DNA of 64,000 nucleotides. Origin: Shinella lacus (GTDB lineage Bacteria; Pseudomonadota; Alphaproteobacteria; Rhizobiales; Rhizobiaceae). The notes beneath the pieces were generated by a model. It searched no databases and was not told the origin of the DNA. It saw only the letters and a list, made by a program, of their open reading frames with translations. Below are positions 177 through 27,999 of the stretch, one piece after another (positions within the stretch are counted from its first letter, which is position 1; the number at the start of each line of letters is the position of its first letter). The position numbers and the translations under genes are program-made. The stretch spans positions 372,001-436,000 of the forward strand of contig NZ_WHSB02000003.1 in assembly GCF_010994755.1 (NCBI RefSeq), given 5' to 3'.

Positions 177-1073
177 ATGAAAGGCTGGAGGCCACCGGCA
201 CCGTTTCTGCTTCTACTGCCCGCCATCCTGGTGCTGGCAGCCGTCGTCATCGTCCCGCTCATCCTGTCGCTCTATTCGAGCTTCACGCCCTTCCGGCTGA
301 CGCAGCCGGCCTCGCTCTATATGTTCGTCGGCTTTCGCAACTATGCGCGCATCCTGACGGACCTGGAGTTCTGGACGGCGTTCGGCCGCACTGTGTTGCT
401 TTTGACCGTCGCGCTCAATGTCGAGATGCTGCTCGGCCTCGGCCTTGCCATGCTGGTGGAGAAGGCGACGCGCGGCCAGCGCCTGCTGCGCACCATCATG
501 ATGTTTCCGATGATGTTCTCTCCGATCCTCGTCGGCTTCCAGTTCAAGTTCATGTTCAACGACAATATCGGCCTCGTGAACAACGCCCTGCAATCGCTCG
601 GCCTGACCGACCAGGCGATCCCGTGGCTGATCGACGGCACGCTCGCCTTCACGGCGATCCTGATCGCCGAAGTCTGGTCGTCCACCTCGGTCTTCGCGAT
701 CCTCATCCTGGCCGGCCTGCTCGCCATGCCGAAGGAGCCGATCGAGGCCGCCCGCGTCGATGGCTGCACGCCCTGGCAGACATTCCGCTACGTCACCTGG
801 CCCTTCATCATGCCCTTCGCCTATATCGCCATGACCATCCGCTCGCTCGACGTTGCGCGTGCCTATGACATCGTCAAGATTATGACGGATGGCGGCCCGG
901 CCAAGCGCACGGAGCTGCTCTGGACGCTCGTCTCGCGCACCGCCTATGCCGATGCCCGCATGGGTCTGGCGAACGCCATGGCCTATGTCGCGATCCTGCT
1001 TTCCATCCTCTTCACCGTCTATTTCTACCGCAAGCTTGCGGCGGCGCGGACCCAGATTGCGGCGGAGTGGTGA
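177..1073 (+). CDS. Sugar ABC transporter permease, MalF type
   Basis: This is an inner-membrane permease subunit of a carbohydrate ABC importer (binding-protein-dependent transport family, 298 residues). The N-terminus begins with a hydrophobic segment (FLLLLPAILVLAAVVIVPLI), further membrane spans follow, and the cytoplasmic EAA loop that contacts the ATPase is visible near residue 189 (IEAARVDGCTPWQTF). ATG at 177 is chosen because GGAG lies eight bases upstream; an in-frame GTG at 156 lacks a good ribosome site. The next permease gene starts within a few bases of the stop, so the two form a heterodimer encoded in one operon. The substrate is not readable from the permease; downstream enzymes suggest a deoxy-hexose such as L-fucose. 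Confidence 0.9.
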   Translation: MKGWRPPAPFLLLLPAILVLAAVVIVPLILSLYSSFTPFRLTQPASLYMFVGFRNYARILTDLEFWTAFGRTVLLLTVALNVEMLLGLGLAMLVEKATRGQRLLRTIMMFPMMFSPILVGFQFKFMFNDNIGLVNNALQSLGLTDQAIPWLIDGTLAFTAILIAEVWSSTSVFAILILAGLLAMPKEPIEAARVDGCTPWQTFRYVTWPFIMPFAYIAMTIRSLDVARAYDIVKIMTDGGPAKRTELLWTLVSRTAYADARMGLANAMAYVAILLSILFTVYFYRKLAAARTQIAAEW

Positions 1074-1078
1074 GTACG

Positions 1079-1945
1079 ATGAACGAGAACGCAAAAGCCC
1101 GTATCAACGGCATCCTCCTGTCGATCGCCCACAAGATCGGCCTCTTCTTGGCCATGACCGTCATCTGCCTGCCGGGGCTCTGGATCGTGCTCGCCTCGTT
1201 CCGGCCGACGGTCGAGATCATGGCGAAGCCGCCGGTCTGGATCCCGCAGGACCTGTCGCTCGATGCCTATGTCGCGATGTTTTCCGGCGTGGGGCAGGGC
1301 GGTATTCCGGTCATCGAGTATTTCCGCAACTCGCTGATCATCTCCGTCACCTCGACGGCGATCGCGCTCGCCATCGGCATGGCCGGCGGCTATGCCTTCG
1401 CGCGCTTCCGGTTCCGGGCCAAGTCCTCGATCTTCCTCGGCCTGATGCTGACGCGCACCGTGCCCGGCATCGCGCTCTCGCTGCCGCTGTTCTTCGTCTA
1501 TTCGAAGCTCGGCATCATCGATACGCATTTCGGGCTGATCATGGCCTATGTGGCGCTCAACGTGCCCTTCACCATCTGGCTGATCGACGGCTTCTTCCGG
1601 CAGGTGCCGAAGGATCTGGCGGAGGCCGCGCAGATCGACGGCTGCACGCGCTGGCAGGCCTTCTGGCAGGTGGAGTTTCCGCTCGCCGGCCCCGGCATCG
1701 CGTCCGCCGGCATCTTCGCCTTCCTAACCTCCTGGAACGAGTTCGCACTGGCCTCGCAGCTCACCCGTTCCGTCAACTCCAAGACCCTGCCCGTCGGCCT
1801 GCTCGACTATACGGCGGAGTTCACCATCGACTGGCGCGGCATGTGCGCGCTGGCGGTGATCATGATCATCCCCGCCCTCGTGCTGACCTTCATCGTGCAG
1901 AAGCATCTGGTTTCCGGCCTCACCTCCGGCGCAGTCAAAGGATAA
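1079..1945 (+). CDS. Sugar ABC transporter permease, MalG type
   Basis: This is the second inner-membrane permease of the same importer (288 residues from ATG 1079). It has the MalG-like layout: an N-terminal span, a long periplasmic segment, then a five-span core with the EAA loop near residue 182 (LAEAAQIDGCTRWQAFW) and the motif TSWNEF typical of MalG-family proteins. In-frame GTG codons at 1067 and 1070 overlap the upstream stop and are alternative starts; the GGTGAG sequence just before 1079 favours the ATG. The ATPase gene begins three bases after the stop, so the three genes are co-transcribed and probably translationally coupled. Confidence 0.9.
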   Translation: MNENAKARINGILLSIAHKIGLFLAMTVICLPGLWIVLASFRPTVEIMAKPPVWIPQDLSLDAYVAMFSGVGQGGIPVIEYFRNSLIISVTSTAIALAIGMAGGYAFARFRFRAKSSIFLGLMLTRTVPGIALSLPLFFVYSKLGIIDTHFGLIMAYVALNVPFTIWLIDGFFRQVPKDLAEAAQIDGCTRWQAFWQVEFPLAGPGIASAGIFAFLTSWNEFALASQLTRSVNSKTLPVGLLDYTAEFTIDWRGMCALAVIMIIPALVLTFIVQKHLVSGLTSGAVKG

Positions 1946-1948
1946 TCC

Positions 1949-3046
1949 ATGGCAACCGTTTCCCTCGAAAAGCTGGTTAAGCGCTACGGCGCAGTCGAAG
2001 TGGTGCATGGTATCGACCTCGAAGTGGCGGACCGCGAGTTCATCGCGCTGGTCGGCCCATCGGGCTGCGGTAAGTCCACCACGCTGCGCATGATCGCGGG
2101 CCTGGAGCCGATTTCCGGCGGCAACCTCAAGATCGGCGGCAAGATCGTCAATGACCTGCCGCCGCGCTCGCGCAACCTCGCCATGGTCTTCCAGTCCTAC
2201 GCGCTCTATCCGCACATGACCGTGCGCGAGAACATGGGCTTTTCGCTGAAGATCGCCGGCCAGAAGCCGGAGGAGATCGCGCCGCAGGTGGAGGAGGCGG
2301 CTAAAACTCTCGACCTCACGCATCTGCTCGACCGCCGCCCCTCGCAGCTTTCCGGCGGCCAGCGCCAGCGCGTCGCCATGGGCCGCGCCATCGTGCGCAA
2401 TCCGGAAGTCTTCCTCTTCGACGAGCCGCTATCGAACCTCGACGCGAAGCTGCGCACGCAGATGCGCGTCGAGATCAAGAAGCTGCACGCCAAGGTCCAG
2501 TCGACGGTGATCTACGTCACCCACGACCAGGTGGAGGCGATGACGCTCGCCGACCGCATCGTCATCATGCGCGATGGCTATATCGAACAGGTCGGCACGC
2601 CGGAGGATGTTTTCCAGCGTCCGCAATCGAAATTCGTCGCCGGCTTCATCGGCTCGCCGCCGATGAACCTCAAGGATGCCGAGGTGGCGGACGGCCAACT
2701 CGTCTTCGAAAACGGCGACCGCCTGCCGCTGCCGGCCCGCTTCAGGGAGCGTGTTACCGCCGGCCAGAAGGTGACCTTCGGCCTGCGCCCGGACGATCTC
2801 TATCCGGCCGGTCACGGCATCCATTCCGGCGAGGATGCCGATGTGCACGACCAGGATCTGCGCGTTATTCTCACCGAACCACTTGGCAACGAAACGCTGG
2901 TCTTTTCCGATTTCGGCGGTGCCGAATGGGTCGGCCGCATGCTCAACCCGCGGCGGCTGACGCCCGGCGATACGCTGCCGTTCTGCTTCGACCTCTCGCA
3001 AGCCCATCTCTTCGACCGCGACAGCGGCCGTACATTGCGAGGCTGA
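1949..3046 (+). CDS. Sugar ABC transporter ATP-binding protein, UgpC/MsmK type
   Basis: This is the cytoplasmic ATPase that energises the preceding permeases (365 residues, normal for the MalK/UgpC family). Walker A is GPSGCGKST at residues 36-44, the signature is LSGGQRQR near residue 134, Walker B with the catalytic glutamate is [12 protein letters not shown], and the switch histidine lies in [11 protein letters not shown]. The C-terminal third is the TOBE-type regulatory domain of this family. The following enolase-superfamily gene starts two bases after the stop, which ties uptake and catabolism together. Family ATPases are often shared between importers, so it could also serve other transporters. 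Confidence 0.93.
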
Positions 3047-3047
3047 C

Positions 3048-4166
3048 ATGGCGAAGATCGAACGCATCGAACTAAAAATGGTCGACCTTCGCCCGAAGGT
3101 CGAACGCACGGACGCCATCCAGAGCTTCGTTTCGCAGGAAACGCCGCTCGTCACCATCACCGACAGCGATGGCGCGGTCGGCACCGGCTACAGCTACACG
3201 ATCGGCACCGGTGGTTCCTCCGTCATGCGGCTTCTTGCCGATCATCTGGCGCCGCGCCTGATCGGTCGCGATGCCGACCAGATCGAAGCGATCTGGCACG
3301 AGTTGGAATTCGCCACCCACGCCACGACGATCGGCGCGATCACCTCGATCGCGCTTGCTGCGATCGACACCGCACTGTGGGACTTGCGTGCCCGAAAGCA
3401 GAACCTGCCGCTCTGGAAGCTCGCCGGTGGCGCGAAGGATCGCTGCCCGCTTTACACGACGGAAGGCGGCTGGCTGCATATCCCGGTGGAAGCGCTGGTC
3501 GAGGATGCGCTCGATGCCAAGGCGAAGGGTTTTACCGGCTCCAAGGTGAAGATCGGCAAGCCGCACGGCTCCGAGGATTTTGCGCGCCTTTCGGCGGTGC
3601 GCAAGGCGGTCGGCGATGGCTATGAGATCATGACCGACGCCAACCAGGGCTTTTCCGTCGACGAGGCGATCCGAAGGGCCGAGCGCTTGCGCGAGCTCGA
3701 TCTCGGCTGGATCGAGGAGCCGCTGCCGGCGGACGATATCGACGGTCATGTGCGCCTCAACCGGTCGACCGCGACGCCGATCGCCATCGGGGAATCGCTC
3801 TATTCGATCCGCCATTTCCGCGAATATATGCAGAAGGGCGCCTGCTCGATCGTGCAGGTCGATGCCGGCCGCATCGGCGGCATCACGCCCTGGCTGAAGG
3901 TGGCGCATGCGGCTGAGGCCTTCGATATGCCGGTCTGCCCGCATTTCCTGATGGAGCTGCATGTCAGCCTCACCTGTGCGGTGCAGAACGGCAAATATGT
4001 CGAATACATCCCGCAGCTCGACGATATTACCACCTCGCGTCTGAGAATAGAGAACGGCATGGCGCTGGCACCCATGACGTCCGGTCTTGGCATCGATTGG
4101 GACTGGGATGCGATCCGCAGCCGGTCGATTGCCGAATTCGAGCACGAGATCCGCAAGGGAGCCTGA
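3048..4166 (+). CDS. Mandelate racemase/muconate lactonizing enzyme family sugar-acid dehydratase
   Basis: This is an enolase-superfamily TIM-barrel enzyme (372 residues) with the capping N-terminal domain. The catalytic KxK lysines lie in SKVKIGK near residue 168, metal ligands in TDANQGF and IEEPL, and the mandelate-racemase-type Asp/His pair in QVDAGRIGG and CPHFLMELH. That arrangement means proton abstraction from a 2-hydroxy acid, usually followed by water loss to a 2-keto-3-deoxy acid. The operon already holds a recognisable L-fuconate dehydratase, so this paralogue may act on another sugar acid. The exact substrate is not readable. The mutarotase gene follows after three bases. Confidence 0.85.
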   Translation: MAKIERIELKMVDLRPKVERTDAIQSFVSQETPLVTITDSDGAVGTGYSYTIGTGGSSVMRLLADHLAPRLIGRDADQIEAIWHELEFATHATTIGAITSIALAAIDTALWDLRARKQNLPLWKLAGGAKDRCPLYTTEGGWLHIPVEALVEDALDAKAKGFTGSKVKIGKPHGSEDFARLSAVRKAVGDGYEIMTDANQGFSVDEAIRRAERLRELDLGWIEEPLPADDIDGHVRLNRSTATPIAIGESLYSIRHFREYMQKGACSIVQVDAGRIGGITPWLKVAHAAEAFDMPVCPHFLMELHVSLTCAVQNGKYVEYIPQLDDITTSRLRIENGMALAPMTSGLGIDWDWDAIRSRSIAEFEHEIRKGA

Positions 4167-11052: not shown

Positions 11053-12059
11053 GCTCCGAGCCCAACGCCTATTCCAGCCATCCGCCGCGCATGCGCGAGA
11101 CGACCATGCTCGACAAGGTCATCGCCAATGGCGGCGTCATGTCTATCGCGCTGTTCTTCGTCGTCTGCTGCTTTTTCTTCGCGGTGACGACGGACGCCTT
11201 CCTGACCGCGCCGAACTTGCTCAACATCATCCGCCAATCCGCGCCGCTCCTGATCGTCGCGGCCGCCATGACCTTCGTCATCACCACGGGCGGCATCGAC
11301 CTTTCGGTCGGTTCCGTGCTGGCGCTGACCGCCACCCTTTCGGCCGCCGCCTTGCAGGCCGGCATTCCTTGGCCGCTCGCCATTATCTTGATGCTGGCGC
11401 TCGGCGGCGTGGTCGGGCTCATCCAGGGCTATTTCATCGCCTATGAAAAGATCCCCGCCTTCATCGTCACGTTGGCCGGCCTTTCAGTCATCCGCGGTTT
11501 CGCGCTGCTCATCACCGGCGGCTATTCGATCCCCATCGAGCCGACCAGCCCCTTCGTGACGATCGGCCGGGCCTGGGTGCTGGGTATTCCGGCACCCGCG
11601 CTCATCGCCATCGTCGTGCTTCTCGCCGCTTATGTCGTCTTCAACGAAACCCATTTCGGCCGTTACGTCACCGGCGTCGGGGCCAATGCGGAGGCGACGC
11701 GCCGTGCCGGTGTCAACACGCGCCGCGTCATCCTCTGGGTCTATATCCTGTCTGGCACGGCGGCGGCAGCGGCCGGCGTCATCCTCTCGGCCCGCCTCGG
11801 TTCGGGTTCCTCGAATGCGGGGCAGGGGTTCGAGCTCGACGTCATCGCGGCCGTGGTGCTGGGCGGCACAAGCCTTTTCGGCGGGCGCGGGTCGCTGGTC
11901 GGCACGATCCTCGGGGCGCTCACCGTCGCAGTTCTGGCGAACGGCCTCATCCTGTCGCACCTGTCGCCCTTCTTCACCCCCATCGTCACCGGCTTCATCA
12001 TCCTGGTCGCGATCTGGCTCAACTTCCGCCTGTTCAAGGGCGGGGCGAAGGGGCGCTGA
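11049..12059 (+). CDS. Ribose-type ABC transporter permease
   Basis: This inner-membrane permease of the RbsC/FrcC family (336 residues) has eight to ten predicted spans. Family marks are ITTGGIDLSVGSVLAL near residue 77, the segment IPAFIVTLAGLSVIRG, VGANAEATRRAGVNTRRV, and DVIAAVVLGGTSLFGGRGS near the C-terminus, which is the region that engages the ATPase. The start overlaps the ATPase stop (ATGA). An ATG at 11106 is an alternative. One base after its stop the phosphotriesterase-like gene begins, so uptake and hydrolysis are tightly coupled. Confidence 0.9.
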   Translation: MSSEPNAYSSHPPRMRETTMLDKVIANGGVMSIALFFVVCCFFFAVTTDAFLTAPNLLNIIRQSAPLLIVAAAMTFVITTGGIDLSVGSVLALTATLSAAALQAGIPWPLAIILMLALGGVVGLIQGYFIAYEKIPAFIVTLAGLSVIRGFALLITGGYSIPIEPTSPFVTIGRAWVLGIPAPALIAIVVLLAAYVVFNETHFGRYVTGVGANAEATRRAGVNTRRVILWVYILSGTAAAAAGVILSARLGSGSSNAGQGFELDVIAAVVLGGTSLFGGRGSLVGTILGALTVAVLANGLILSHLSPFFTPIVTGFIILVAIWLNFRLFKGGAKGR

Positions 12060-12060
12060 C

Positions 12061-13152
12061 ATGCTCGACCATCTCTTTGCCGAGGAGCCGAGGAAGCGCG
12101 ACCCGATCGGCGTGAACTCCGGCACCGCCATGACCGTCACCGGGCCCGTTCCGGTGGACAATCTCGGCGTCACGCTGATGCACGAGCACATCTTCCTCGA
12201 TGGCGCGACAAGCTGGATCTGCCCGTGCCATCCCGACGAGAAGGCGATCGCCGAACAGAAGGTCGAGATCGGCATCATCGGCGAGTTGCGCATGAACCCC
12301 TATATGAACCGGGACAATGTCTCGCTCGACGACGGGGATCTCGCGCTCAGCGAACTCAAGCGCTTCCAGGCGCTCGGCGGCTGCACGGTGGTGGAAACGA
12401 CGAATTTCGGCATCGGGCGCGACGCGGCCGGCCTTGCCCGCATCGCCCGCATGTCGGGGTTGCGCATCATCATGGGCACCGGTTTCTACCTCGAACACAC
12501 CCATCCCGAATGGCTGAAGGCCATGAGTGTCGAGGAAGTCACGCAGTTCATCGTCGACGATGTCGGCGGCGGCGAGAGCCAGCCGGAGATCATGGCGGGC
12601 ATTATCGGCGAGGTCGGCGTCAGCCGGCATTTCACGGCCGAGGAGGAAAAGTCGTTGCGCGCCTCGGCCCGGGCGGCGCGCATCACCGGCCTGCCGCTTT
12701 CCATCCACCTGCCGGGCTGGGAGCGTCTCGCGCACCGCGTGCTTGACGTGGTGGAGGAGGAGGGGGCCGATCCGGCGCATACCGTGCTCTGCCACATGAA
12801 CCCGAGCCACAGCGATCTCGATTACCAGATGGCGCTCGCGAAACGTGGTGCCTTCCTGGAATATGACATGATCGGCATGGACTATTATTACGCCGACCAG
12901 GACGCCCAGTCGCCCTCCGACGAGGAAAACGCCCGCGCCATCGCCGCCCTTGTCGACAAGGGTTTTGGCGACCGGCTGCTGCTGTCGCAGGATGTCTTTC
13001 TCAAGATCATGCTGACCCGCTACGGCGGCTTCGGCTACGCTTATATCCTCAAGCACTTCCTGCCGCGGCTGAAGCGGCATGGCGTGGATCAGGCAGCGAT
13101 CGACCGCATGCTGATCGACAATCCCAAATCCGTCTTTTCCGCCGCGCGCTGA
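12061..13152 (+). CDS. Phosphotriesterase-family metal-dependent hydrolase, probable sugar lactonase
   Basis: This amidohydrolase-superfamily TIM-barrel enzyme has 363 residues. Metal ligands expected for the PTE family are visible: H41-x-H43 (MHEHIF), a bridging glutamate at residue 184 in IIGEVG where phosphotriesterase has a carboxylated lysine, histidines in SIHLPGW and LCHMNPS, and the aspartate in LLSQDVF. Characterised bacterial members with glutamate as bridge are lactonases, several acting on phosphorylated sugar lactones, rather than true phosphotriesterases. Context with a PfkB kinase and ribose-type importer fits a sugar-derived lactone or cyclic amide. The substrate is not proven. 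Confidence 0.82.
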   Translation: MLDHLFAEEPRKRDPIGVNSGTAMTVTGPVPVDNLGVTLMHEHIFLDGATSWICPCHPDEKAIAEQKVEIGIIGELRMNPYMNRDNVSLDDGDLALSELKRFQALGGCTVVETTNFGIGRDAAGLARIARMSGLRIIMGTGFYLEHTHPEWLKAMSVEEVTQFIVDDVGGGESQPEIMAGIIGEVGVSRHFTAEEEKSLRASARAARITGLPLSIHLPGWERLAHRVLDVVEEEGADPAHTVLCHMNPSHSDLDYQMALAKRGAFLEYDMIGMDYYYADQDAQSPSDEENARAIAALVDKGFGDRLLLSQDVFLKIMLTRYGGFGYAYILKHFLPRLKRHGVDQAAIDRMLIDNPKSVFSAAR

Positions 13153-18300: not shown

Positions 18301-18927
18301 TTATGAAACCAGCGGCCGTGACGACGGCTCCTTCTGAAGCCCGGTGGCGAGGAGGCGGGCGAGCGCCGCGACTTCCCGCTCCAGCAGTGCCGGCGTGATG
18401 CCGACGAAACGGCCTTCGAGGCTGATGGCGATGACGCCGTGCACGGCCGAAAACACGGTTCGCGCGCGGATCGCGATGTCGTCGGCGGAGGTATCCGGCA
18501 TCTGGCGGGCGAGGGGTGCTGCGATCAGGCCGATGAGGAAGGCGTGCTCCGCCAGGTGCCAATCCGGAACGGCGACGCCGTCCGGCATCCGGTGTTCGAA
18601 CAATGCGGACCACAGGTTTCGCTCGGCAAGCGCGAAATGCAGATAGGCGAGCGACAGGTTGAGGAAGGTTTCTTCAAGGTCACCCGAAGACGGTAGCGCG
18701 GCGTTCAGCGCCGTCTCCAGCCGCTTGAGCGTGCGGGAATTGACGTGGAGAACGAGCCCGTCCAGGTCGTCGAAGACGGTGTAGAGCCCGCCGAGCGCCG
18801 AGCCCGCGCGCTCCGCGATGTCGCGCGCCCGCAAACCCTTCAGGCCCTGTTCCTGAATAAGCTCCGTGCCGGCGGCGATCAGCCGTGTCTTCAACTCTTC
18901 CTTCTTCTCCCGCCGCTTTTCCGTCAT
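18301..18927 (-). CDS. TetR-family transcriptional repressor
   Basis: This 208-residue regulator has an N-terminal TetR helix-turn-helix (LRARDIAERAGSALGGLYTVFDDLDGLVLHV) and a helical ligand-binding domain. It is divergent from the large acyltransferase/acyl-ACP synthetase gene, and the shared intergenic region holds three 13-base TGAAC-type palindromes. Repression of the phospholipid-acylation gene and of itself in response to a fatty-acid-type ligand is the likely function. That link is inference from layout. The start follows GGAGGA on the minus strand. Confidence 0.9.
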   Translation of the reverse strand: MTEKRREKKEELKTRLIAAGTELIQEQGLKGLRARDIAERAGSALGGLYTVFDDLDGLVLHVNSRTLKRLETALNAALPSSGDLEETFLNLSLAYLHFALAERNLWSALFEHRMPDGVAVPDWHLAEHAFLIGLIAAPLARQMPDTSADDIAIRARTVFSAVHGVIAISLEGRFVGITPALLEREVAALARLLATGLQKEPSSRPLVS

Positions 18928-19065: not shown

Positions 19066-22000
19066 ATGCAACGGAATCTGATGACCTCCCGGCGCTTTGC
19101 GCCGCTCTTCTGGACGCAGTTCCTGTCGGCCTTCAACGACAATTTTCTGAAGAACACCCTGGTCTTCCTCATCCTCGCCACCATGGCGGCCGATGCGGCG
19201 GGCTCGCTCGTCACGCTGGCGGGCGCCGTCTTCATGGCGCCGTTCCTGTTGTTTTCCGCGCTCGGCGGCGAGCTTGCCGACAAGTTTGACAAGGCGGTCA
19301 TGGCCGAGCGGCTGAAGCGGGTGGAGCTTGCCGCCGCGGCCGTCGCCGTCGTCGGTCTCGCCTTCCACTCCGTCACGGTGCTCATGGTCGCGCTCTTCCT
19401 GTTCGGCGTGATCTCGGCGTTGTTCGGCCCGGTCAAATACGGCATCCTGCCCGACCATCTGGAGCGCAAGGAACTGCCGCGCGCCAATGCCTGGATCGAG
19501 GGCGCTACCTTCATCGCCATCCTCGGCGGCACGCTGGTCGCCGGTCTTGCCGCGGCCGATGGCGTCAATCCCTGGCTCTTCGGGCCGATGATGCTGGGTC
19601 TCGCGCTCGCCTGCTGGCTGTCGAGCCGCTACATCCCGCGCGTCGGCGCCAAGGCGCCGGAGCTTGTGATCGAGCGCAACGTGCTCGCCTCCACCGGCCG
19701 CCTCGTCAATGCACTGCGCGGCGACCAGCGCCTCTGGCGCTCCGCCCTGATGGCTGCCTGGTTCTGGCTCGTCGGCGCGATCGTGCTCTCGCTGCTGCCG
19801 CCCATGGTGAAGGGCAGCCTCGGCGGTGAGGAAACCGCGATCACCGCCTATCTCGCCGTCTTCGCCGTTGCCGTCGGCATCGGCTCGGCCATTGCCGCCT
19901 GGATGTCGGCCGGCCGCATCGTGCTTCTGCCGGCCCCTGTCGGTACGCTGATCATGGCGCTGTTCGGCTTCGATCTCGCCTGGAGCGTCGGCCATGCCGG
20001 TGTCACCGTTCCGGCCGAAACGCTCTCCGCCTTCTTCGCCGGCCCCTACACAATCCGCATCGCCATCGACCTCGCCGGCATGGCGATCGCCGGCGCCTTC
20101 CTCGTCGTGCCCACCTTCGCCGCCCTCCAGGCCTATGCCGAGGAAGAGCAGCGCTCGCGCGTCATCGGCGCGGCGAATGTGCTGTCGGCGGGTTTCATGA
20201 CGGTCGGCGGCGGCCTCGTCGCGGCCTTGCAGGCAGCGGGCCTCTCCACGCCGGTGCTGCTGGCCGGCCTCGCGTTCGCCAACTTGGTCGCGGCCTTCGT
20301 GATGCTGCGCACGTTGCCCACCAATGCTTTCCGCGATTTCGTCTCCATCCTCTTCCGTGCCTTCCTGCGGCTGGAGGTGGACGGCCTCGAAAACCTGAAG
20401 AAGGCCGGCAAGGCGCCGATCATCGCGCTCAACCACGTCTCCTTCCTGGATGGCGCACTGGCGCTGGCGCTGACCGACGAGGAGCCGACCTTCGCCGTCG
20501 ACTACACGATCGCCAAGGCCTGGTGGGTGAAACCCTTCCTGAAGATGTGCAACTTCCTGCCGCTCGATCCTTCCAAGCCCATGGCGACGCGCACGCTCAT
20601 CAAGACCGTCAATGCCGGCAATCCGCTCGTCATCTTTCCGGAAGGCCGCATCACCGTTACGGGCGCGCTGATGAAGGTCTATGACGGCGCCGCCATGGTG
20701 GCCGACAAGACCGGCGCCATGGTCGTGCCGGTGCGCATCGACGGGCTGGAGAAGAGCTATTTCTCGCGCCTCTCCTCGCTCCACGTCCGCCGTCGCCTGT
20801 TCCCGAAGGTGAAGGTTACCATTCTGGAGCCGGTGCGCCTCTCCGTGCCGGATGAGCTGAAGGGCCGCAAGCGCCGCATGGCCGCCGGGGCCGCGCTCTA
20901 CCAGGTCATGTCCATGCTGATGTTCCGCACCACGGACACGGATGCGACCGTGCTGGAAAAAGTGATCGAGACGGCAAAGGAACGCGGTTTCCGCAAGCTC
21001 GCCGTGCAGGACCCTGTGACCGGCTCGCTCTCCTACGGCAAGCTTCTGACGGGTGCGGCCGTGCTCGGCGCAAAGTTCAAGGCCCTGTACCCGGCGGAGA
21101 ACACGCTCGGCGTGCTTCTGCCCAATGCCAACGGCGCGGTGGCGACGATCCTCGGCGTGATGTCGGCGGGCAAGGTGCCGGCCATGCTGAACTTCACGGC
21201 CGGTGCCGCCAATATCCTCTCGGCCTGCCGTGCCGCCGAGGTGCGCCATGTGCTGACGTCCCGCGCCTTCGTTACCCAGGCGAAGCTCGGCCCGGTGGTC
21301 GAGGCGCTGTCGAAAGAGGTGGAGATCGTCTGGCTCGACGACCTGCGCCAGACCGTTCGGTTCGTGGACAAGCTGCGCGGCCTGCTGCGCAAGGCCCGGC
21401 CGCTCGTTCGGCGCAAGGCGGATGACCCGGCGGTGATCCTCTTCACCTCCGGCTCGGAGGGCGCGCCGAAGGGCGTGGTGCTGACGCACCGCAACATCCT
21501 CTCCAACGCCGCGCAGGCCGCCTCGCGCATCGATTTCCACTCGGGCGACAAGGTGTTCAACATCCTGCCGGTGTTCCATTCCTTCGGGCTGACGGCCGGC
21601 ACCATCCTGCCGCTTATCTCCGGCGTGCCGGTCTATTTCTACCCGTCGCCGCTGCACTACCGGATCATTCCGGAGCTGATCTATTCCTCCAACGCTACGA
21701 TCATCTTCGGCACGGATACGTTCCTCAACGGCTATGCCCGCACCGCGCATCCCTATGATTTCCGCTCGATCCGCTATTGCTTCGCCGGCGCCGAGCCGGT
21801 GCGCGCCACCACCCGCGCGCTCTACATGGAAAAGTTCGGCGTGCGCATCCTCGAAGGCTACGGCGTCACCGAGGCGGCGCCGGTCATCGCGCTCAACACG
21901 CCGATGTTCAACAAGGCCGGCAGCGTCGGCAAGATCATGCCGGGCATGGAATACAGGCTGGATGCGGTGCCGGGCGTCACGGAGGGCGGCCGCCTCTTCG

Positions 22001-22464
22001 TGCGCGGTGCGAACGTCATGGCCGGCTATCTCAGGGCGGAAAATCCTGGCGTGCTGGAGCCGACGCCGGACGGCTGGCACGACACCGGCGATATCGTGAC
22101 GGTCGACGAGGATGGCTTCATCGTCATCCGCGGCCGTGCCAAGCGCTTCGCCAAGATCGGCGGCGAGATGGTCTCGCTTGCCGCCGTCGAGGCGCTTGCC
22201 GGCGAATTGTGGCCGGGCAACCTCTCGGTCGTCGTCTCGCTGCCCGATGCGCGAAAGGGCGAGCGCCTGGTCATGCTGACCGACGCGCCGAGCGCCACCC
22301 GCGCCGCCTTCCTGGCCTTCGCCCGCGAGAAGGCCGCCATGGACATGATGGTGCCTTCGGAGGTGAAGGTCGGCACGGTGCCTGTGCTCGGCTCCGGCAA
22401 GGTCGATTTCGTCAGCGCGCAGAAGCAGCTGGCCGAGACGGCGCGGGCGGAGCAGGCGGCGTGA
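19066..22464 (+). CDS. Bifunctional acyl-ACP:phospholipid O-acyltransferase / acyl-ACP synthetase fused to LplT-type transporter
   Basis: This 1132-residue membrane protein has three modules. Residues about 1-410 are an MFS-type lysophospholipid flippase (LplT-like, starting RFAPLFWTQFLSAFNDNFLKNTL). About 430-640 is a PlsC acyltransferase with the H-x4-D motif NHVSFLD and FPEGRITVTG. About 680-1125 is an AMP-forming synthetase with FTSGSEGAPKGVVLTH, GYGVTEAAPV, DTGDI and the GRAKRFAKIGGE hinge. In enteric bacteria LplT and Aas are separate proteins that import and re-acylate lysophosphatidylethanolamine; here they are one chain. It is divergent from a TetR gene with operators between. Confidence 0.92.
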   Translation: MQRNLMTSRRFAPLFWTQFLSAFNDNFLKNTLVFLILATMAADAAGSLVTLAGAVFMAPFLLFSALGGELADKFDKAVMAERLKRVELAAAAVAVVGLAFHSVTVLMVALFLFGVISALFGPVKYGILPDHLERKELPRANAWIEGATFIAILGGTLVAGLAAADGVNPWLFGPMMLGLALACWLSSRYIPRVGAKAPELVIERNVLASTGRLVNALRGDQRLWRSALMAAWFWLVGAIVLSLLPPMVKGSLGGEETAITAYLAVFAVAVGIGSAIAAWMSAGRIVLLPAPVGTLIMALFGFDLAWSVGHAGVTVPAETLSAFFAGPYTIRIAIDLAGMAIAGAFLVVPTFAALQAYAEEEQRSRVIGAANVLSAGFMTVGGGLVAALQAAGLSTPVLLAGLAFANLVAAFVMLRTLPTNAFRDFVSILFRAFLRLEVDGLENLKKAGKAPIIALNHVSFLDGALALALTDEEPTFAVDYTIAKAWWVKPFLKMCNFLPLDPSKPMATRTLIKTVNAGNPLVIFPEGRITVTGALMKVYDGAAMVADKTGAMVVPVRIDGLEKSYFSRLSSLHVRRRLFPKVKVTILEPVRLSVPDELKGRKRRMAAGAALYQVMSMLMFRTTDTDATVLEKVIETAKERGFRKLAVQDPVTGSLSYGKLLTGAAVLGAKFKALYPAENTLGVLLPNANGAVATILGVMSAGKVPAMLNFTAGAANILSACRAAEVRHVLTSRAFVTQAKLGPVVEALSKEVEIVWLDDLRQTVRFVDKLRGLLRKARPLVRRKADDPAVILFTSGSEGAPKGVVLTHRNILSNAAQAASRIDFHSGDKVFNILPVFHSFGLTAGTILPLISGVPVYFYPSPLHYRIIPELIYSSNATIIFGTDTFLNGYARTAHPYDFRSIRYCFAGAEPVRATTRALYMEKFGVRILEGYGVTEAAPVIALNTPMFNKAGSVGKIMPGMEYRLDAVPGVTEGGRLFVRGANVMAGYLRAENPGVLEPTPDGWHDTGDIVTVDEDGFIVIRGRAKRFAKIGGEMVSLAAVEALAGELWPGNLSVVVSLPDARKGERLVMLTDAPSATRAAFLAFAREKAAMDMMVPSEVKVGTVPVLGSGKVDFVSAQKQLAETARAEQAA

Positions 22465-22470
22465 CGCTGC

Positions 22471-23478
22471 CTAGCCGAGCACGAGATCGCGGGCCGGAAG
22501 GCGGTATTTGGCAAGGGTGATCGGCGCTGGCCCGACACGCAGCACGTTGATCAGGCGATGGCCCTGCGGCAGCGGAAAACGCTGCAGCAGGGTTTCCGAA
22601 GCGGAAGGAACGTCGGCGAGAACCGCCATCGGCCAGCCGGCAAAGCCGAAGCGGGTGAGCCCGAGCCAGAAGCGATAGAAGGCCCGGCCGGAAACGACCG
22701 GGCTTTCGCCTTCCGGCCGGTGGAACAGCAGGCAGGCCGCCGCCGTCATCGTCTTGCCGGCCTCCGCGACGAGCGTCTTGCCGAGGCCCAGCCGGTCGGC
22801 GAGATCGAAGAGCGGCGAGGCGAGCACGCCCCCCGCCACCGCGCCCTCCAGCCGCCCCATGCGCAGGGCATCGAGGTTCAGGCCGTCGAAAGCGTAGGCG
22901 GCGTGAGCCGGCGTAAGGCGTATCCACGCCACGAGTTCGTCGCGGAACGCGCGCTCGCGCATGACGGACAGGCTAGCGCCGTCGTTGAGTGCGGCGATGA
23001 AGGCGAGGGCGTCCGGCCCGCCGGCAAAGGTGATGTCGTCGGCTTCCACCGCCCATCGTTCGAGGTCCGCCAGCGCCTCCGGCGTGGCCGCAGAGAAGCG
23101 GCCGCGCCAGGTGAAGCGTTTCTCCGTCCAGTCGGCAAGCGAGGAGGGGCTTGCTTCTCCCGCCGGGGTGAGGCGCGCGGCCAGCCGATAGCCGGGGCGC
23201 CAGGAGCGGGTGTCGGCTTCCCAGAGGTCGTCCACCAGAACGCGGATGCCGCGCGCGGCGAGCGCCATTACCATACCCTCAAGCGCCGCGCCGCAGGAAA
23301 GACCCATGTCGCGGCCCGTCGGATCGCCGACGGCGAGGTGCCGGGAGAGATCGGCGGCGATGAGGATGCGGCCCTCTTCATCCAAGGCGAAACGCGCAGG
23401 CTGGGTGTTGTGCACGGAGGGGGCGCGGTTCGCCTGCGCGGCGAGATCGGCGAGCGTGGCGGCGTCGATCCGGCTCAT
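22471..23478 (-). CDS. Acg-type nitroreductase-like flavoprotein
   Basis: This 335-residue protein resembles the Acg branch of the nitroreductase fold, in which two half-domains form one FMN-binding chain. The N-terminal motif NRAPSVHNTQPARF is the typical FMN-phosphate contact, and the C-terminal half repeats the fold (KTMTAAACLLFHRP, FGFAGWPMAVLADVPSASETLL). Members may be reductases, oxidases or flavin-storage proteins; activity cannot be assigned. It is the last gene of a five-gene overlapping operon, and its start overlaps the preceding GNAT-like stop by four bases. It converges on the acyltransferase gene with six bases between. Confidence 0.8.
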   Translation of the reverse strand: MSRIDAATLADLAAQANRAPSVHNTQPARFALDEEGRILIAADLSRHLAVGDPTGRDMGLSCGAALEGMVMALAARGIRVLVDDLWEADTRSWRPGYRLAARLTPAGEASPSSLADWTEKRFTWRGRFSAATPEALADLERWAVEADDITFAGGPDALAFIAALNDGASLSVMRERAFRDELVAWIRLTPAHAAYAFDGLNLDALRMGRLEGAVAGGVLASPLFDLADRLGLGKTLVAEAGKTMTAAACLLFHRPEGESPVVSGRAFYRFWLGLTRFGFAGWPMAVLADVPSASETLLQRFPLPQGHRLINVLRVGPAPITLAKYRLPARDLVLG

Positions 23479-24581
23479 AGCGTCTTTCCGAAGAGGTGCA
23501 GGCGATGCAGGGGGCGGGCGCCGGCCTTTTCGGCCTGGCGCAGACTTGCGGCATTGGCATCTGCGATCCAGGTGCCGCCGGCGGTCTCATAGCCGGCATT
23601 GCGCATTTCGCCGAGCACATGGGCGAGCATCAGCGGATTGAGGCCGCGCCCCTGATGCTCCGGCTTCACACCTTGGAAGATGACGACGGCGCGCCGCCGC
23701 CTGAGACGGTGTTTCAGGAGGTGCCAGGGAGCGGAAAAGCCGAGCCGCGAGCCCATCGCCTTCAGCATCGGGTTGACATCCGGTATGGCGATCACCGCGC
23801 CAGCCGGCACGCCGTTCCGTTCCGCCACGGCCGAGATGCGCGGATCCATGATCCACTTCATCTCCTTGGCCTGGAATTCGTATTCCGCGCGGCTGACGGG
23901 CACGAACATCGGATTGTCTGCGAAACTCTCGTTGAGGATCAACCGTGAATCCTCCAGCTGCCGGTCGAGCGTCGCGCGGCGGATGGGCGAGAAACGAAAG
24001 CCATCGTCGAGGAGCGCCTGCATCTCGGCGCTGCCCAGCAGCCGGTCCGTCGCGGCGTTGCGGATATCGATCTCGAAGGTGGTCATCGGGAAGGAGGGCG
24101 AATAGCCCCGAGCTTCCAGCAGGCGCGGCAGGTGCGGCGGTCCCCAGACCTGGTCGGTATAGGGCGCATTCTCGAAACCGCCGGTCAGGATGCCGACCTG
24201 TTGCATGGCGGTCAGGTTGAAATTGCCGAGGAGTTCGGTGAAACCCTTGGCGCGTGCCCAATCCTCCGCCCGCTCCAAAAGGGCAGCGGCGACGCGCTCG
24301 TCGTCGGCGCAATCGAAATAGCCGAAATAGCCGCGCTTCAGCCCGAACCGGGCATTTGCGGCGCGGTGCACATGGGCCGTGATGCGCCCGCGCACCGCGC
24401 CGTCCTCATGGGCGGTGAAGATGGCGAAATCGTCCGCCGTCTCGAAAAGCGGATTCTTCTCCGCCGAAAGGAAGCGCTTCAGGTCGCTGAACATCGGCGA
24501 GACATAGGGCGTCCTGTCGCCGTAGACCGCGAAGGGCGCGGCGAAGAAGGCGTCGAGGTCGCCCTCGCGGATCTCAATCAT
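23475..24581 (-). CDS. GNAT-like acyltransferase, YghO type
   Basis: This 368-residue protein contains an N-acetyltransferase-like fold in its C-terminal half: the acyl-CoA pyrophosphate loop QGVKPEHQGRGLNPLMLAHV, followed by GGTWIADANAASLRQAEKAGARP. The N-terminal half has FFAAPFAVYGDRTPYVSP, typical of larger YghO-like GNAT relatives whose substrates are unknown. It overlaps the membrane-protein gene by eight bases and the nitroreductase gene by four. A role in acylating a small molecule or peptide made by the neighbouring E1-like enzyme is speculation. Confidence 0.75.
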   Translation of the reverse strand: MIEIREGDLDAFFAAPFAVYGDRTPYVSPMFSDLKRFLSAEKNPLFETADDFAIFTAHEDGAVRGRITAHVHRAANARFGLKRGYFGYFDCADDERVAAALLERAEDWARAKGFTELLGNFNLTAMQQVGILTGGFENAPYTDQVWGPPHLPRLLEARGYSPSFPMTTFEIDIRNAATDRLLGSAEMQALLDDGFRFSPIRRATLDRQLEDSRLILNESFADNPMFVPVSRAEYEFQAKEMKWIMDPRISAVAERNGVPAGAVIAIPDVNPMLKAMGSRLGFSAPWHLLKHRLRRRRAVVIFQGVKPEHQGRGLNPLMLAHVLGEMRNAGYETAGGTWIADANAASLRQAEKAGARPLHRLHLFGKTL

Positions 24582-25770
24582 CGCGCGCGTTCCTTTCCGA
24601 GATCAGGAAGGCCATGCGCTGGGCGACCTTCAGCTCCGTCTCGGCGCCCGGCGTGGCGGAGACGGAGGGCATGTTGAGCGCGATCAGCCGGAATGGCCGG
24701 GCCGATACCAGCATCAGATGGGTCGCCTCGTATTTTTCGAGCAGCCAGGCGAGCTGTTCGGCATCCGATTGCGCAAGCCCGCCCGCTTCCGTGGCGCGCA
24801 GCAGCGGCTGGGCGGCAAAGAGCGCCTTGATGCCCGCAAGGTCGAGATCGGCAAGCTCCTTCTCGCCGAGCAGCAGCGCCCCCTCGACTAGCGGATGGTT
24901 CTGCAATTCCTTGAGGAAACCGAGCGTATCGTCGATGCGGTCTTCCGCGAGATGCCGGATGAGGCTCTGCCGGCGCTGTTCCGTACGCAGGCTGATGCTG
25001 TCCTTCCAGATGACGCCAAGCAGCGCGGCCGAGGTGACGACGGAGGCCGTGCGCACCAGCGCGGCCGCGTCGAGCCCGTTTTCGAGGCCGATGGCGAGCG
25101 CACCGAGAAGGGCTGCGGCCAGCAGGACGGCGAAGGAGACGACGGTGTCGCGATGGCTGACGGCGCGCTGGCCGAGGCTGATCAGCAGCCAGCAGAGAAA
25201 CAGGATGGCGACCCCGCCGAGCCGCACCGGCAGGTCGACATAGGCCGAGCGGAAATCCGTCACGAGCAGCGGCAGGATCAGGAGCAGCGACAGCGCGATG
25301 CGGTCCACCGCCTGGTTTTCCGCCTTCGACAGGCTCGTCCGGTCACGCGTCACCGCCATGTGCCCGGCCAGCGCGAAGGTGACGAGCTGGTAGAGGAAGA
25401 GCAGCACCAAGCGCCACGGATCGACGGCAGCTGGCAGGAAGGCGAGGACCGCGAAAGCGGCTGCACCACCCGCCGCGATCCATTTCGTGATTTTTGGCGC
25501 ATGCCGGCGCAGCAGGCCCTCGGCCAGCAGGACCGTGGCCAGCGGCACGAGCCCGGCCGAGATGATCGTCGCGGCCTCGAAGATGAAGAGGCCCGTCCAC
25601 CAGGCAAGCACACGGCTCACCATCAAGGCGGCCAGCACGCGAAGGCCAAACAGGAAGCGGCGGGTGAGCGGGCTCCCAGCATCGAAACTGCGGATGGCGC
25701 CGATCAGCACCGCCAGCCCGCCGAAGGCGGCGAGCGAAATGAAGGTATCGGCGATCAGCGCTGCGGTCAT
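24574..25770 (-). CDS. Multi-span membrane protein of unknown function
   Basis: This 398-residue protein shows about eight hydrophobic spans in residues 1-240 (for example LIADTFISLAAFGGLAVLIG, LVPLATVLLAEGLL, VAILFLCWLLISLG) and then a soluble cytoplasmic tail of roughly 140 residues with leucine-rich helices (LIRHLAEDRIDDTLGFLKEL, EQLAWLLEKYEATHLMLVS). I do not recognise a family. The ATG at 25770 overlaps the E1-like stop by four bases and is preferred to an upstream in-frame start that would add 42 low-complexity residues. Genomic coupling implies it works with the E1-like and GNAT-like neighbours at the membrane. Confidence 0.72.
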   Translation of the reverse strand: MTAALIADTFISLAAFGGLAVLIGAIRSFDAGSPLTRRFLFGLRVLAALMVSRVLAWWTGLFIFEAATIISAGLVPLATVLLAEGLLRRHAPKITKWIAAGGAAAFAVLAFLPAAVDPWRLVLLFLYQLVTFALAGHMAVTRDRTSLSKAENQAVDRIALSLLLILPLLVTDFRSAYVDLPVRLGGVAILFLCWLLISLGQRAVSHRDTVVSFAVLLAAALLGALAIGLENGLDAAALVRTASVVTSAALLGVIWKDSISLRTEQRRQSLIRHLAEDRIDDTLGFLKELQNHPLVEGALLLGEKELADLDLAGIKALFAAQPLLRATEAGGLAQSDAEQLAWLLEKYEATHLMLVSARPFRLIALNMPSVSATPGAETELKVAQRMAFLISERNARDD

Positions 25771-26654
25771 GGTTTTGCCGGCGCGGCAAGCCGCGTCAGG
25801 TAGCGCCGCACCAGCGGGCGCAGCAGCGCCGCAACGAGCGCGTTGCGCGGGCGCTCGACATGGCCGGCATGCGGATTGAAGAACCAGCCGCGGCAATCGG
25901 CACCCTGCGGCTTGCCGAGCACCGTGTGGATCGCCTCATAGGCCATCAGCATGCCTGTCGTGATGACCATGGGCGCAAAGGACATGCGGCTTCGCGTGCC
26001 GGCCACCACTTCGCCGGCAAGCGCCAGGTCGACATGGCGGCGGGAGGAGGAATGCACCATCACATATTCCGCCTCGCGCAGGAATGCTTCCGCCCGCTGG
26101 TCGCTCGTCAGCGCGTTCCAGGCGGTGCCGATCGTCGGATAGCCGAGCCGTTCTTCCGGCATCGGGTCCTGCGGCCGCGTTACATAGACGGAGGGCAGGG
26201 GGGCGGCATAGGCGTCGATTATCGTGCGCCCGTGCTGTCGCGCCGTGCGATACAGCAGCAGCCCCGCGCCGAGATCGTCCGTGCCGTTTATCACCACATC
26301 CGCACCCGCGACAAGCGCGTCCGCGTGGTCCGTCCATGCCGCACCGTGGACGGTGACGTCCAGATCGGGATTGATCTTCAGGCAGAGATCGCGTGTCGCC
26401 TCCGCCTTCGGCTGGCCGATCGTGTCGGCAAAGCAGAAGACCTGGCGATTGAGGTTCGACAGCTCGAAACGGTCGATATCGGCCAGCACCAGGCGGCCGA
26501 TGCCGGCGCGCACCAGAGCCTGGATGGCCGCGCCGCCCATGCCGCCGGTGCCGCAGAAGAAAACCGTCGCCTGCGAAAGCCGCCGCTGCTCCGCCTCGCT
26601 GACGAAGCCGATGTTGCGCGTGGTGAAGGTGTCGTAGGAAAAGGTGCCGCTCAT
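25767..26654 (-). CDS. ThiF/MoeB/HesA-family E1-like adenylating enzyme
   Basis: This 295-residue protein is an E1-like ATP-dependent adenylyltransferase. The nucleotide loop is CGTGGMGG (34-41), followed by the acidic strand end LADIDRFELSNLNRQ (57-71) with the conserved Asn and Arg, Lys83 in GQPKAEA, and the aspartates in INGTDDLGA (near 126). There is no CxxC zinc pair and no cysteine where the thioester-forming residue sits in true E1s, so it probably adenylates a carboxylate without making a thioester. ATG 26654 overlaps the upstream stop. Neighbours are a nitroreductase-like protein and two GNAT-like proteins; no ubiquitin-like or MoaD/ThiS protein is nearby. Confidence 0.85.
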   Translation of the reverse strand: MSGTFSYDTFTTRNIGFVSEAEQRRLSQATVFFCGTGGMGGAAIQALVRAGIGRLVLADIDRFELSNLNRQVFCFADTIGQPKAEATRDLCLKINPDLDVTVHGAAWTDHADALVAGADVVINGTDDLGAGLLLYRTARQHGRTIIDAYAAPLPSVYVTRPQDPMPEERLGYPTIGTAWNALTSDQRAEAFLREAEYVMVHSSSRRHVDLALAGEVVAGTRSRMSFAPMVITTGMLMAYEAIHTVLGKPQGADCRGWFFNPHAGHVERPRNALVAALLRPLVRRYLTRLAAPAKP

Positions 26655-27649
26655 CGTTTGGAAGGCCTCAAAATGCCCCATTGCCGCCGGCTGTCGGCCC
26701 AATGCAGCACCGGCAGGACGAGCCGCTGCACGAGGATGACGAAGCTTGCCACCGCCAGCCGCCCCAGCGCATTGCGCGGCACGCTTTCAAGCAGATAGCG
26801 CTGCGCGGCGTTGAGATCGAGCTGGCCGATCTGCAGCAGGTCGTCGCCGCGGGCATAGTCGAGTTCGGCGGCACAGAAGTCGTTGTATTCGGGTTTGCGG
26901 TGTTTCGGCGCGGCGTCGAACGTCTTCTTCAGGTTGTCGGAGCCGCCGGTATAGGCGTTGGTGATGACGAAGCGGTCGGCATCGAAGCCGGCCTCCGGGC
27001 CGACGCCGAAAACATGCCGGTGCGCGGCCATGATTTCCGTCGCGATCAACTGTTGGCGCAGCGAACGCCGGGCGCCGCGCGTTGGTGCCGGAAAGACGTC
27101 GCTGAACGTCTCCGCCACCATGCCGGCGACCGCCGGCACCTGCGTGACGTTTGAAATCCACAGCGGGCGAAGCTGGTTGCGCAGGAAGAGCAGAAAGCAG
27201 GTAAGCCCGTAGAGCACCCAGGAAAGCCCCTGGCTGCGCACGGCGGGGTCGATCATCACCAGACCGAGGTGAAGAACTTCGACGGGCTTGCCGGAGAGTG
27301 AAAGTGCGATGACTGGCAACGCATTGAAGGCGACCGGTTGCCCATCGGAGACCCGGTAGACCAGCGTGACGATCGTGCGCGACAGCACGTCCTCCCGCTC
27401 GGAAAACACCCCATAATCGAGGCTCCCATCCGCAACCGCGCGCCGCGCCACCGAGCGCAGATCGTCGCGCAGGCCGGCAATGTCCGGTGCGCTCATCCAG
27501 AGGCCTGGAAACTCGACGATCCGCGCGCGAAATTCGGGCGATGTCTTGAACGCGAGGTCGAGGCGCTTCTTCAGGACGACCGAAAGCAGATTGTACAATG
27601 GACTATGCCCGATGATCCAGAACGGCGGAATGCACGCTTGCGGCTGCAA
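26651..27649 (-). CDS. GNAT-like protein, first gene of the E1-like operon
   Basis: This 332-residue protein has a GNAT-like core (EVLHLGLVMIDPAVRSQGLSWVLYG, with an RSQGLS acyl-CoA loop, then LWISNVTQVPAVAGMVAETFSDVFP) and a C-terminal part ending in a hydrophobic amphipathic stretch (RLAVASFVILVQRLVLPVL) that could attach it to the membrane. The first codon is unclear: a TTG at 27649 gives a plausible N-terminus, and an internal ATG at 27496 would remove 51 residues that look structured. It is the promoter-proximal gene of five overlapping genes. The function is unknown. Confidence 0.68.
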   Translation of the reverse strand: MQPQACIPPFWIIGHSPLYNLLSVVLKKRLDLAFKTSPEFRARIVEFPGLWMSAPDIAGLRDDLRSVARRAVADGSLDYGVFSEREDVLSRTIVTLVYRVSDGQPVAFNALPVIALSLSGKPVEVLHLGLVMIDPAVRSQGLSWVLYGLTCFLLFLRNQLRPLWISNVTQVPAVAGMVAETFSDVFPAPTRGARRSLRQQLIATEIMAAHRHVFGVGPEAGFDADRFVITNAYTGGSDNLKKTFDAAPKHRKPEYNDFCAAELDYARGDDLLQIGQLDLNAAQRYLLESVPRNALGRLAVASFVILVQRLVLPVLHWADSRRQWGILRPSKR

Positions 27650-27771: not shown

Positions 27772-27999
27772 CTATTCCTCCGGCATCAGGCCATCGAACA
27801 CTTCCAGCAGGGCATTGACGATCTCCTGGCCCAGCGCATTGGCCCTGTCGGCGATTTGTTCGTCACCCTGGTTGCGGACGGCAAGTGCAAGATTGCCGCC
27901 CTCTTCCGCGACAATGGCCTTGGCGCGTTCGATTGCCCATTGTGCGAAGTCACTGCGGTTTTGGATCGTCACCGTTTCCATTGTCGTCGGCCTGTTCAC
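27772..27999 (-). CDS. Small hypothetical protein
   Basis: This 75-residue acidic protein is largely helical by appearance (RSDFAQWAIERAKAIVAEEG, ADRANALGQEIVNALLEVFD) with no membrane span or cysteine. The start could be GTG 27999, with AAGGA immediately upstream, or ATG 27981 six codons later. It lies alone in a thinly coded stretch between the E1-like operon and a cluster of small genes. I do not recognise a family. Confidence 0.5.
   Translation of the reverse strand: MNRPTTMETVTIQNRSDFAQWAIERAKAIVAEEGGNLALAVRNQGDEQIADRANALGQEIVNALLEVFDGLMPEE

Follow-up and report, generated by a model that had tools for sequence, protein, structure and literature searches.

Acyl-oxazolones are synthesised by the OxzAB, TyzACB and TrzAS systems through N-acylation, ATP-dependent cyclisation by a ThiF protein and O2-dependent desaturation by an oxidase (PMC10404671, PMC12856293), and the route from acyltransferase, ThiF protein and flavin oxidase to the acyl-oxazolone has been demonstrated both by expression and in vitro (PMC10404671, PMC12856293). 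FeeM is reported as a closest structural homologue of TyzA, and a low sequence identity is given for OxzA (PMC10404671). Rv1355c, now named TrzS, is a ThiF-oxidase fusion that makes tryptazolones, and the oxazolone ring is opened by acids and alcohols (PMC12856293). Producers of N-acyl dehydrotyrosines carry a synthase, a ThiF protein and a nitroreductase, and only saturated N-acyl compounds are made by a Massilia in whose candidate clusters neither ThiF nor nitroreductase occurs (PMC12479983). The physiological role of acyl-oxazolones has been called a major unresolved question (PMC12856293). Here we describe an operon of five genes, numbered 1 to 5 in the direction of transcription, in a stretch of 64,000 nt (the window) from the 7.04 Mb genome of Shinella lacus. 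It appears to follow the gene logic of an acyl-oxazolone or N-acyl dehydroamino-acid cluster and represents a variant form of the acyl-oxazolone clusters rather than an ordinary member. Among the papers listed, a literature search yielded none describing this five-gene set.

The genes lie on the minus strand, from 27598 down to 22471, and overlap at their junctions by 4, 4, 8 and 4 bases, as described in an earlier reading of the DNA letters by a model (the first-pass annotation). All five ORFs have the place and strand that it gave, except that gene 1 probably starts at a TTG codon at 27598, not at 27649, because the starts of its relatives align there. The association of the five genes is well beyond chance and the operon is layered, with genes 1 and 3 as a core, genes 2 and 5 as a module and gene 4 as an extra. 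These conclusions draw on the best 80 of 261 gene 1 relatives, found by scanning genome contigs with two gene 1 peptide patterns, so that gene 1 is present in all 80 loci by construction and gene 3 is not; we take the loci to be alphaproteobacterial, except for one Lysobacter record. Counts were taken without correction for relatedness and presence denotes a profile match, some of the matched genes being broken (gene 4 of L102, from Bradyrhizobium pachyrhizi, which is in two pieces at 11995-13116, and genes 3 and 5 of L031).

Gene 3 accompanies gene 1 in 80/80 loci, either adjoining it or coming next after gene 2. The order 1-2-3-4-5 occurs in 37 loci, 1-2-3-5 in 13 and 1-3 in 26, the last group including L079, which ends inside gene 3 so that gene 5 is not visible, and L056, which ends 162 bases after gene 3. 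The other four comprise two loci with 1-2-3 (one of them ending at a contig end), one with 1-3-5 and one with remnants of genes 4 and 5 and no gene 2. Fifty loci have both gene 2 and gene 5, 26 have neither and 4 have just one of them, and gene 4 gave a profile match in 38 loci, every one of which also has gene 5. Among the relatives the median junction is a 4-base overlap for every kind of neighbouring pair. The block singled out by the first-pass annotation is a conserved one, and homologues scattered without co-occurrence were not seen; the fixed stoichiometry that it had read into the overlaps is not supported, because many relatives lack gene 2, 4 or 5. In L040 (Mesorhizobium), remnants of genes 4 and 5 lie at 11260-11867 and gene 2 is absent, as if the module were decaying.

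A quick tree of gene 1, in which 22 forks are open and branches are long, gives at least seven state changes for the module of genes 2 and 5 (leaving out L039, L040, L056, L079 and L093), at least seven for gene 4 (leaving out L040, L056, L079 and L093) and at least five for aas, a neighbouring gene considered below. For 17 of the 26 core-only loci the genomes were searched for gene 2 elsewhere: 16 hold no true copy (MoeB-like scores of at most 79 bits) and one does (534 bits), with three positive controls scoring at least 494 bits.

The distribution of the operon is sporadic. Among 61 genomes, the window's own plus 60 relatives, gene 1 was found in four, which belong to one genus, and among 240 genomes of the class in one, which was the window's own. 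It is also present in 10 plasmid records (six from Ensifer, two each from Shinella and Rhizobium), and the four records that were examined have all five genes arranged as in the window, genes 3 and 5 being split over frames in one of them. In the unannotated record L011, a plasmid of Rhizobium sp. 32-5/1, frame breaks divide gene 3, gene 5 and also aas, perhaps through sequencing errors. A plasmid search with gene 2 returned 149 records, 10 of them covering 80% of the query, and the remaining matches listed are mostly annotated as MoeB, ThiF or HesA. Some gene 5 match was detected in 45 of 398 Pseudomonadota genomes, with at most five candidates scored per genome, and exceeded 300 bits in three, including the window's own; the other two both have all five genes.

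The protein of gene 2 matches PF00899 (E 1.2e-34) and its closest NCBIfam model is PRK08223 (118 bits, cut-off 266). It shares with the MoeB/ThiF/E1 enzymes the adenylation fold and residues of the type whose role is known from MoeB and ThiF; R13, N67, N69, R70, K83 and D126 are invariant in 33/33 aligned relatives. It differs from them in lacking the CxxC zinc site (0/33 relatives), in falling far under the curated cut-offs (91 bits with the MoeB model, cut-off 266; 90 bits with the ThiF model, cut-off 159) and in having no ubiquitin-like partner among the flanking open reading frames (ORFs) scanned. The only invariant cysteine, C34, lies within a glycine-rich loop. The first-pass annotation was right that the adenylation residues are retained without a CxxC pair, and likewise that ubiquitin-like, JAB and YcaO proteins are lacking nearby: Pfam detected none of these domains in nine flanking ORFs (E<=0.001) or in aas (E<=1), an upstream ORF at 27772-27999 lying outside that scan. 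Gene 2 also matches the Rv1355c family model, in its ThiF region, at 45.7 bits.

Gene 5 matches NF047509, the Acg-family model, and its profile finds the Acg structure 2YMV in a sequence search of the PDB (E 1.1e-12). The score of 134.6 bits is below the curated cut-off of 199 for Acg/Rv3131. The oxidase part of NF005901 (Rv1355c/TrzS) gives 47.5 bits, and all 46 aligned gene 5 relatives match both models at E<=0.001.

Gene 1 is a probable N-acyltransferase, judged mainly from its predicted structure. The protein itself has no Pfam or NCBIfam match, and among 48 members of its family weak matches (best E 0.0046) were obtained with PF13527 (9/48) and PF00583 (7/48); five further families were each touched by one to three members. 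Its AlphaFold2 (AF2) model (predicted local distance difference test, pLDDT, 85.4; predicted template-modelling score, pTM, 0.83) matches mostly GNAT acetyltransferases in Foldseek, with 25 matches at E<=0.001 and NatD as the best (E 1.4e-5, template-modelling score about 0.3 by query length). Residues 118-126 form the motif P-x-x-R-S-x-G-x-S, which we take to be of the coenzyme A (CoA) type, with P118 and S126 conserved in 48/48 members, R121 in 41/48 and G124 in 37/48, and a hydrophobic helix occupies residues 277-301 at the C-terminus. Gene 4 matches the GNAT family PF00583 (E 2.4e-9). Two GNAT-like proteins, as first proposed, are present, and the N-acyltransferase of the oxz, tyz and trz clusters has its counterpart here at the level of fold. 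The two have no detectable relationship to each other, and sequence searches of the PDB with their profiles gave nothing below E 0.3 for either. A literature search comparing gene 4 with ceramide synthase produced no useful paper.

Gene 3 encodes a polytopic membrane protein, as the first-pass annotation had supposed, on the basis of its hydrophobic helices and its AF2 model (pLDDT 92.2, pTM 0.85), in which a helix bundle is followed by a long helix (residues 235-276) and a C-terminal alpha/beta domain. A fold search gave no PDB match at E<=0.001. NCBIfam models matched 59 members inconsistently, with 12 families each touched by a single member.

The gene aas, which converges on the operon and ends 6 bases past gene 5, scores 1731.9 bits with NF005291 (acyl-ACP--phospholipid O-acyltransferase; ACP, acyl carrier protein), above the cut-off of 1349, and qualifies as Aas. 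It was searched for in 37 of the 61 genomes. Within the genus (21 genomes, E<=1e-100) it was found in 4/4 genomes with gene 1 and in 0/17 without it, and of 16 other genomes from the family, none of which has gene 1, two gave a partial or distant match. Of the 80 loci, 20 carry aas: in 18 it is downstream and convergent, and in two (Methylobacterium, Bosea) it sits immediately upstream in the same orientation, 5 bases away.

Taken together, we consider it moderately probable that the operon and aas direct the biosynthesis of a fatty-acyl amino-acid lipid, cyclised and oxidised in the manner of an oxazolone, the product being a prediction. Aas would activate a fatty acid to acyl-ACP or supply acyl chains, and the gene 1 protein, a GNAT enzyme that is probably membrane-tethered, would N-acylate an amino acid. 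The ThiF protein of gene 2 could then adenylate the carboxylate with ATP, leading to closure to an oxazolone, and gene 5 may desaturate the product with flavin mononucleotide and O2; this would give an acyl-oxazolone, or an N-acyl dehydroamino acid once the ring opens. A second acyl group might be added or exchanged by gene 4, gene 3 would be an obligatory membrane partner of gene 1, acting as scaffold, exporter or sensor, and a plain N-acyl compound would be expected from relatives that have only genes 1 and 3.

Several lines of evidence support this pathway. The GNAT-like fold and CoA-type motif of gene 1 and the co-occurrence of aas are in accord with it, as is the near-unitary variation of the ThiF and oxidase genes. 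The Massilia whose candidate clusters are devoid of ThiF and nitroreductase, and which produces the saturated form alone (PMC12479983), parallels the core-only loci. Support also comes from the closeness of gene 2 to PRK08223, the family of a ThiF protein encoded between a FeeM-type synthase and a flavin oxidase in another pseudomonadotal locus, L138. There (201-3943) a patatin gene accompanies an oxz-like cluster in which an N-acyl amino acid synthase (PF21926, E 7.4e-8), the ThiF protein (PRK08223, 406.6 bits) and the oxidase are encoded side by side. The adenylation, acyl transfer, flavin redox chemistry and lipid-like product inferred in the first-pass annotation match the published oxazolone pathways (PMC10404671, PMC12856293). 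Its interpretation as a whole is partly supported, and its statement that E1-like and nitroreductase-like domains share one chain in Rv1355c is borne out by TrzS (PMC12856293). It did not foresee the published pathways themselves, the core role of the membrane protein, the optional nature of the ThiF and oxidase module or the linked aas.

Like oxzAB of Pseudoalteromonas rubra and like tyzACB (tyrazolone) and trzAS (tryptazolone) of mycolic-acid bacteria, the operon combines an acyltransferase with a ThiF protein and a flavin-dependent oxidase and, as in tyzBC, the latter two are separate proteins. The operon differs in that gene 1 is not FeeM-like by sequence, the oxidase scores nearer to the Acg/Rv3131 than to the Rv1355c/TrzS model, the ThiF and oxidase genes are not adjacent and a second GNAT, an obligatory membrane protein and a linked aas are present. 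The N-acyl dehydrotyrosine clusters (stieleriacines, thalassotalic acids, kyonggic acids) resemble it in having a synthase gene (NAS), ThiF and nitroreductase genes and, in two producers, short gaps or gene overlaps; they differ in lacking the extra genes found here, the synthase comparison being limited to FeeM models and L138. The oxidase of L138 is homologous to gene 5 (E 2.9e-5) over residues 5-131, the N-terminal third. New features are the layering (1+3, 2+5, 4), the link to aas and an obligatory membrane protein that has no significant fold match.

A number of observations weigh against an oxazolone-style pathway. Gene 5 leans to the Acg/Rv3131 side, as do three stand-alone oxidases (226-337 bits with NF047509 against 52-101 with NF005901), and the oxidase of L138 shows the reverse preference (77.7 against 90.3 bits), which argues against a standard oxazolone oxidase in gene 5 and points away from the FDO-A group. 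Data for the FDO-B oxidases indicate no involvement in oxazolone synthesis (PMC10404671). Gene 2 aligns with the ThiF protein of L138 (E 8.4e-25) over residues 3-148, the N-terminal half only, and neither gene 1 nor gene 4 has a sequence match to its synthase. PF21926, the FeeM-type family, is absent from the seven families touched by the 48 gene 1 members, and FeeM is not among the best 50 of 1007 fold matches to the gene 1 model. Formal membership of the described clusters is not established: by sequence the acyltransferase cannot be recognised as a FeeM-family enzyme, and the oxidase scores closer to Acg. NF011425 found ThiF matches in 7 of 299 genomes, and the stretches around them, including the 9 kb one of L138, contain no match to genes 1, 3 or 4.

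A broader and more tentative proposal, which we regard as possible and less likely than not to hold in full, is that genes 1 and 3 constitute a core of two proteins not described before, in which a synthase of acyl lipids has a dedicated membrane partner of unmatched fold, and which is spread across alphaproteobacteria. To this core an optional oxazolone-forming module of ThiF protein and oxidase, and then the second GNAT, would repeatedly have been gained or lost. Such a modular acyl-oxazolone or acyl-amino-acid system, for signalling or as membrane lipid, would lie outside the oxz, tyz and trz lineages.

A rather unlikely explanation is that the ThiF protein activates a carboxylate for intermolecular amide or ester ligation to a second head group or lipid and that the oxidase modifies the fatty-acyl chain, in which case no oxazolone would form and the product would be a structural membrane aminolipid. 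The leaning of gene 5 to Acg/Rv3131 would fit, FDO-B oxidases have been suggested to desaturate other lipids (PMC10404671), and gene 2 shows no alignment to the ThiF protein of L138 in its C-terminal half. Two acyltransferases and Aas, with PspA and YiaA/B-like genes nearby (in 27 and 26 of the 80 loci), would also suit a membrane lipid. However, the papers on oxazolones and N-acyl compounds cited here offer no characterised ThiF-oxidase pair acting in this way, and the ThiF and oxidase genes co-vary as in oxazolone clusters.

It is decidedly improbable that genes 1 and 3 encode a signal synthase and its membrane receptor, with the remaining genes merely tailoring the signal. The constant pairing of the two genes, in 26 loci without genes 2, 4 and 5, would be explained, and the layout of gene 3, with its helix bundle, long helix and alpha/beta domain, is sensor-like; 3/59 members match 7TMR-DISM_7TM (best E 0.0012) and nearly all of the best 50 weak fold matches are seven-transmembrane (7TM) receptors. 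Yet neither Pfam nor NCBIfam revealed an output domain (kinase, cyclase or DNA-binding) in the 59 members, the best Foldseek match has an E value of 6.9e-3 with a root-mean-square deviation of 15, and R38, R53, E84, H90, K96, R157 and D172, which like P181 are invariant in 59/59 members, would equally fit an enzyme or transporter.

Modification of a peptide or small protein, methanobactin-like or ubiquitin-like, is scarcely credible: E1-like and nitroreductase-like enzymes do occur in peptide clusters, as the first-pass annotation noted, but the overlapping genes leave no room between them for a precursor, two small upstream ORFs have no tblastn match in the 80 loci at E 1e-3, and the missing CxxC of the gene 2 family and the lack of partner domains in the window flanks, the region scanned for a precursor or ubiquitin-like gene, led us to set aside the ribosomally synthesised peptide and ubiquitin-like readings.

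If the preferred oxazolone-style pathway is correct, acyl-oxazolone chemistry, found recently in gammaproteobacteria and mycolic-acid bacteria, would extend to Rhizobiaceae, Bradyrhizobium, Mesorhizobium and the Roseobacter group, and relatives lacking the module would provide natural built-in controls. The operon also exposes a membrane protein, without family assignment, that accompanies the acyltransferase in every locus examined, and the core of genes 1 and 3 would be a candidate for experimental testing. The features are listed in Table 1.

Table 1. Operon genes and adjacent features, with positions in the window
Feature	Position	Strand	Assignment
Gene 1	26651..27598	-	GNAT-fold acyltransferase with hydrophobic C-terminal helix; probable N-acyltransferase
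Gene 2	25767..26654	-	ThiF/E1-like adenylating enzyme; probable cyclase
Gene 3	24574..25770	-	Multi-helix membrane protein with C-terminal alpha/beta domain; without assigned family
Gene 4	23475..24581	-	Large GNAT-family acyltransferase
Gene 5	22471..23478	-	Acg-like flavin-dependent oxidase, nitroreductase superfamily
aas	19066..22464	+	MFS, acyltransferase and acyl-ACP synthetase; convergent neighbour, probable partner
TetR-type regulator	18301..18927	-	PF13305/PF00440; divergent from aas

Beyond aas, genes of the PspA, TetR and YiaA/B-like families recur near the operon (e.g., L100:6938-8349). Their profiles were built from the same 80 loci in which they were counted, and the controls were 24 stretches (8.7-13 kb) around stand-alone gene 5 relatives in varied genomes, most loci being longer (up to 19 kb). 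On this basis TetR was found in 24/80 loci and, like PspA and the YiaA/B-like family, in 0/24 controls; an aas-like match appeared in 1/24 controls at a laxer threshold. The TetR gene of the window matches the recurrent TetR profile (256.9 bits) and was the only one of the three families detected in the 64 kb, PspA and YiaA/B-like genes being apparently missing beside aas. The YiaA/B-like family is named solely by its position, the gene that follows aas in L009 and L012 being so annotated.

Families of di-haem cytochrome c (c7 or c15) occur in 35/80 loci and 0/24 controls, and no locus among the 80 has both such a cytochrome and aas. These cytochromes are MauG/RoxA-like (e.g., L059:14092-15822 and L085:12302-14026) and in many loci lie convergently right after the operon. 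In 18/80 loci, as judged by the c9 profile, core-only genes 1 and 3 are situated inside an apparent sugar catabolism operon (e.g., L058, L062, L063, L067, L071 and L089). An FGGY kinase and a sugar-isomerase-like TIM barrel are encoded upstream there, and a glycerate-kinase-like MOFRL/DUF4147 gene overlaps or closely follows gene 3.

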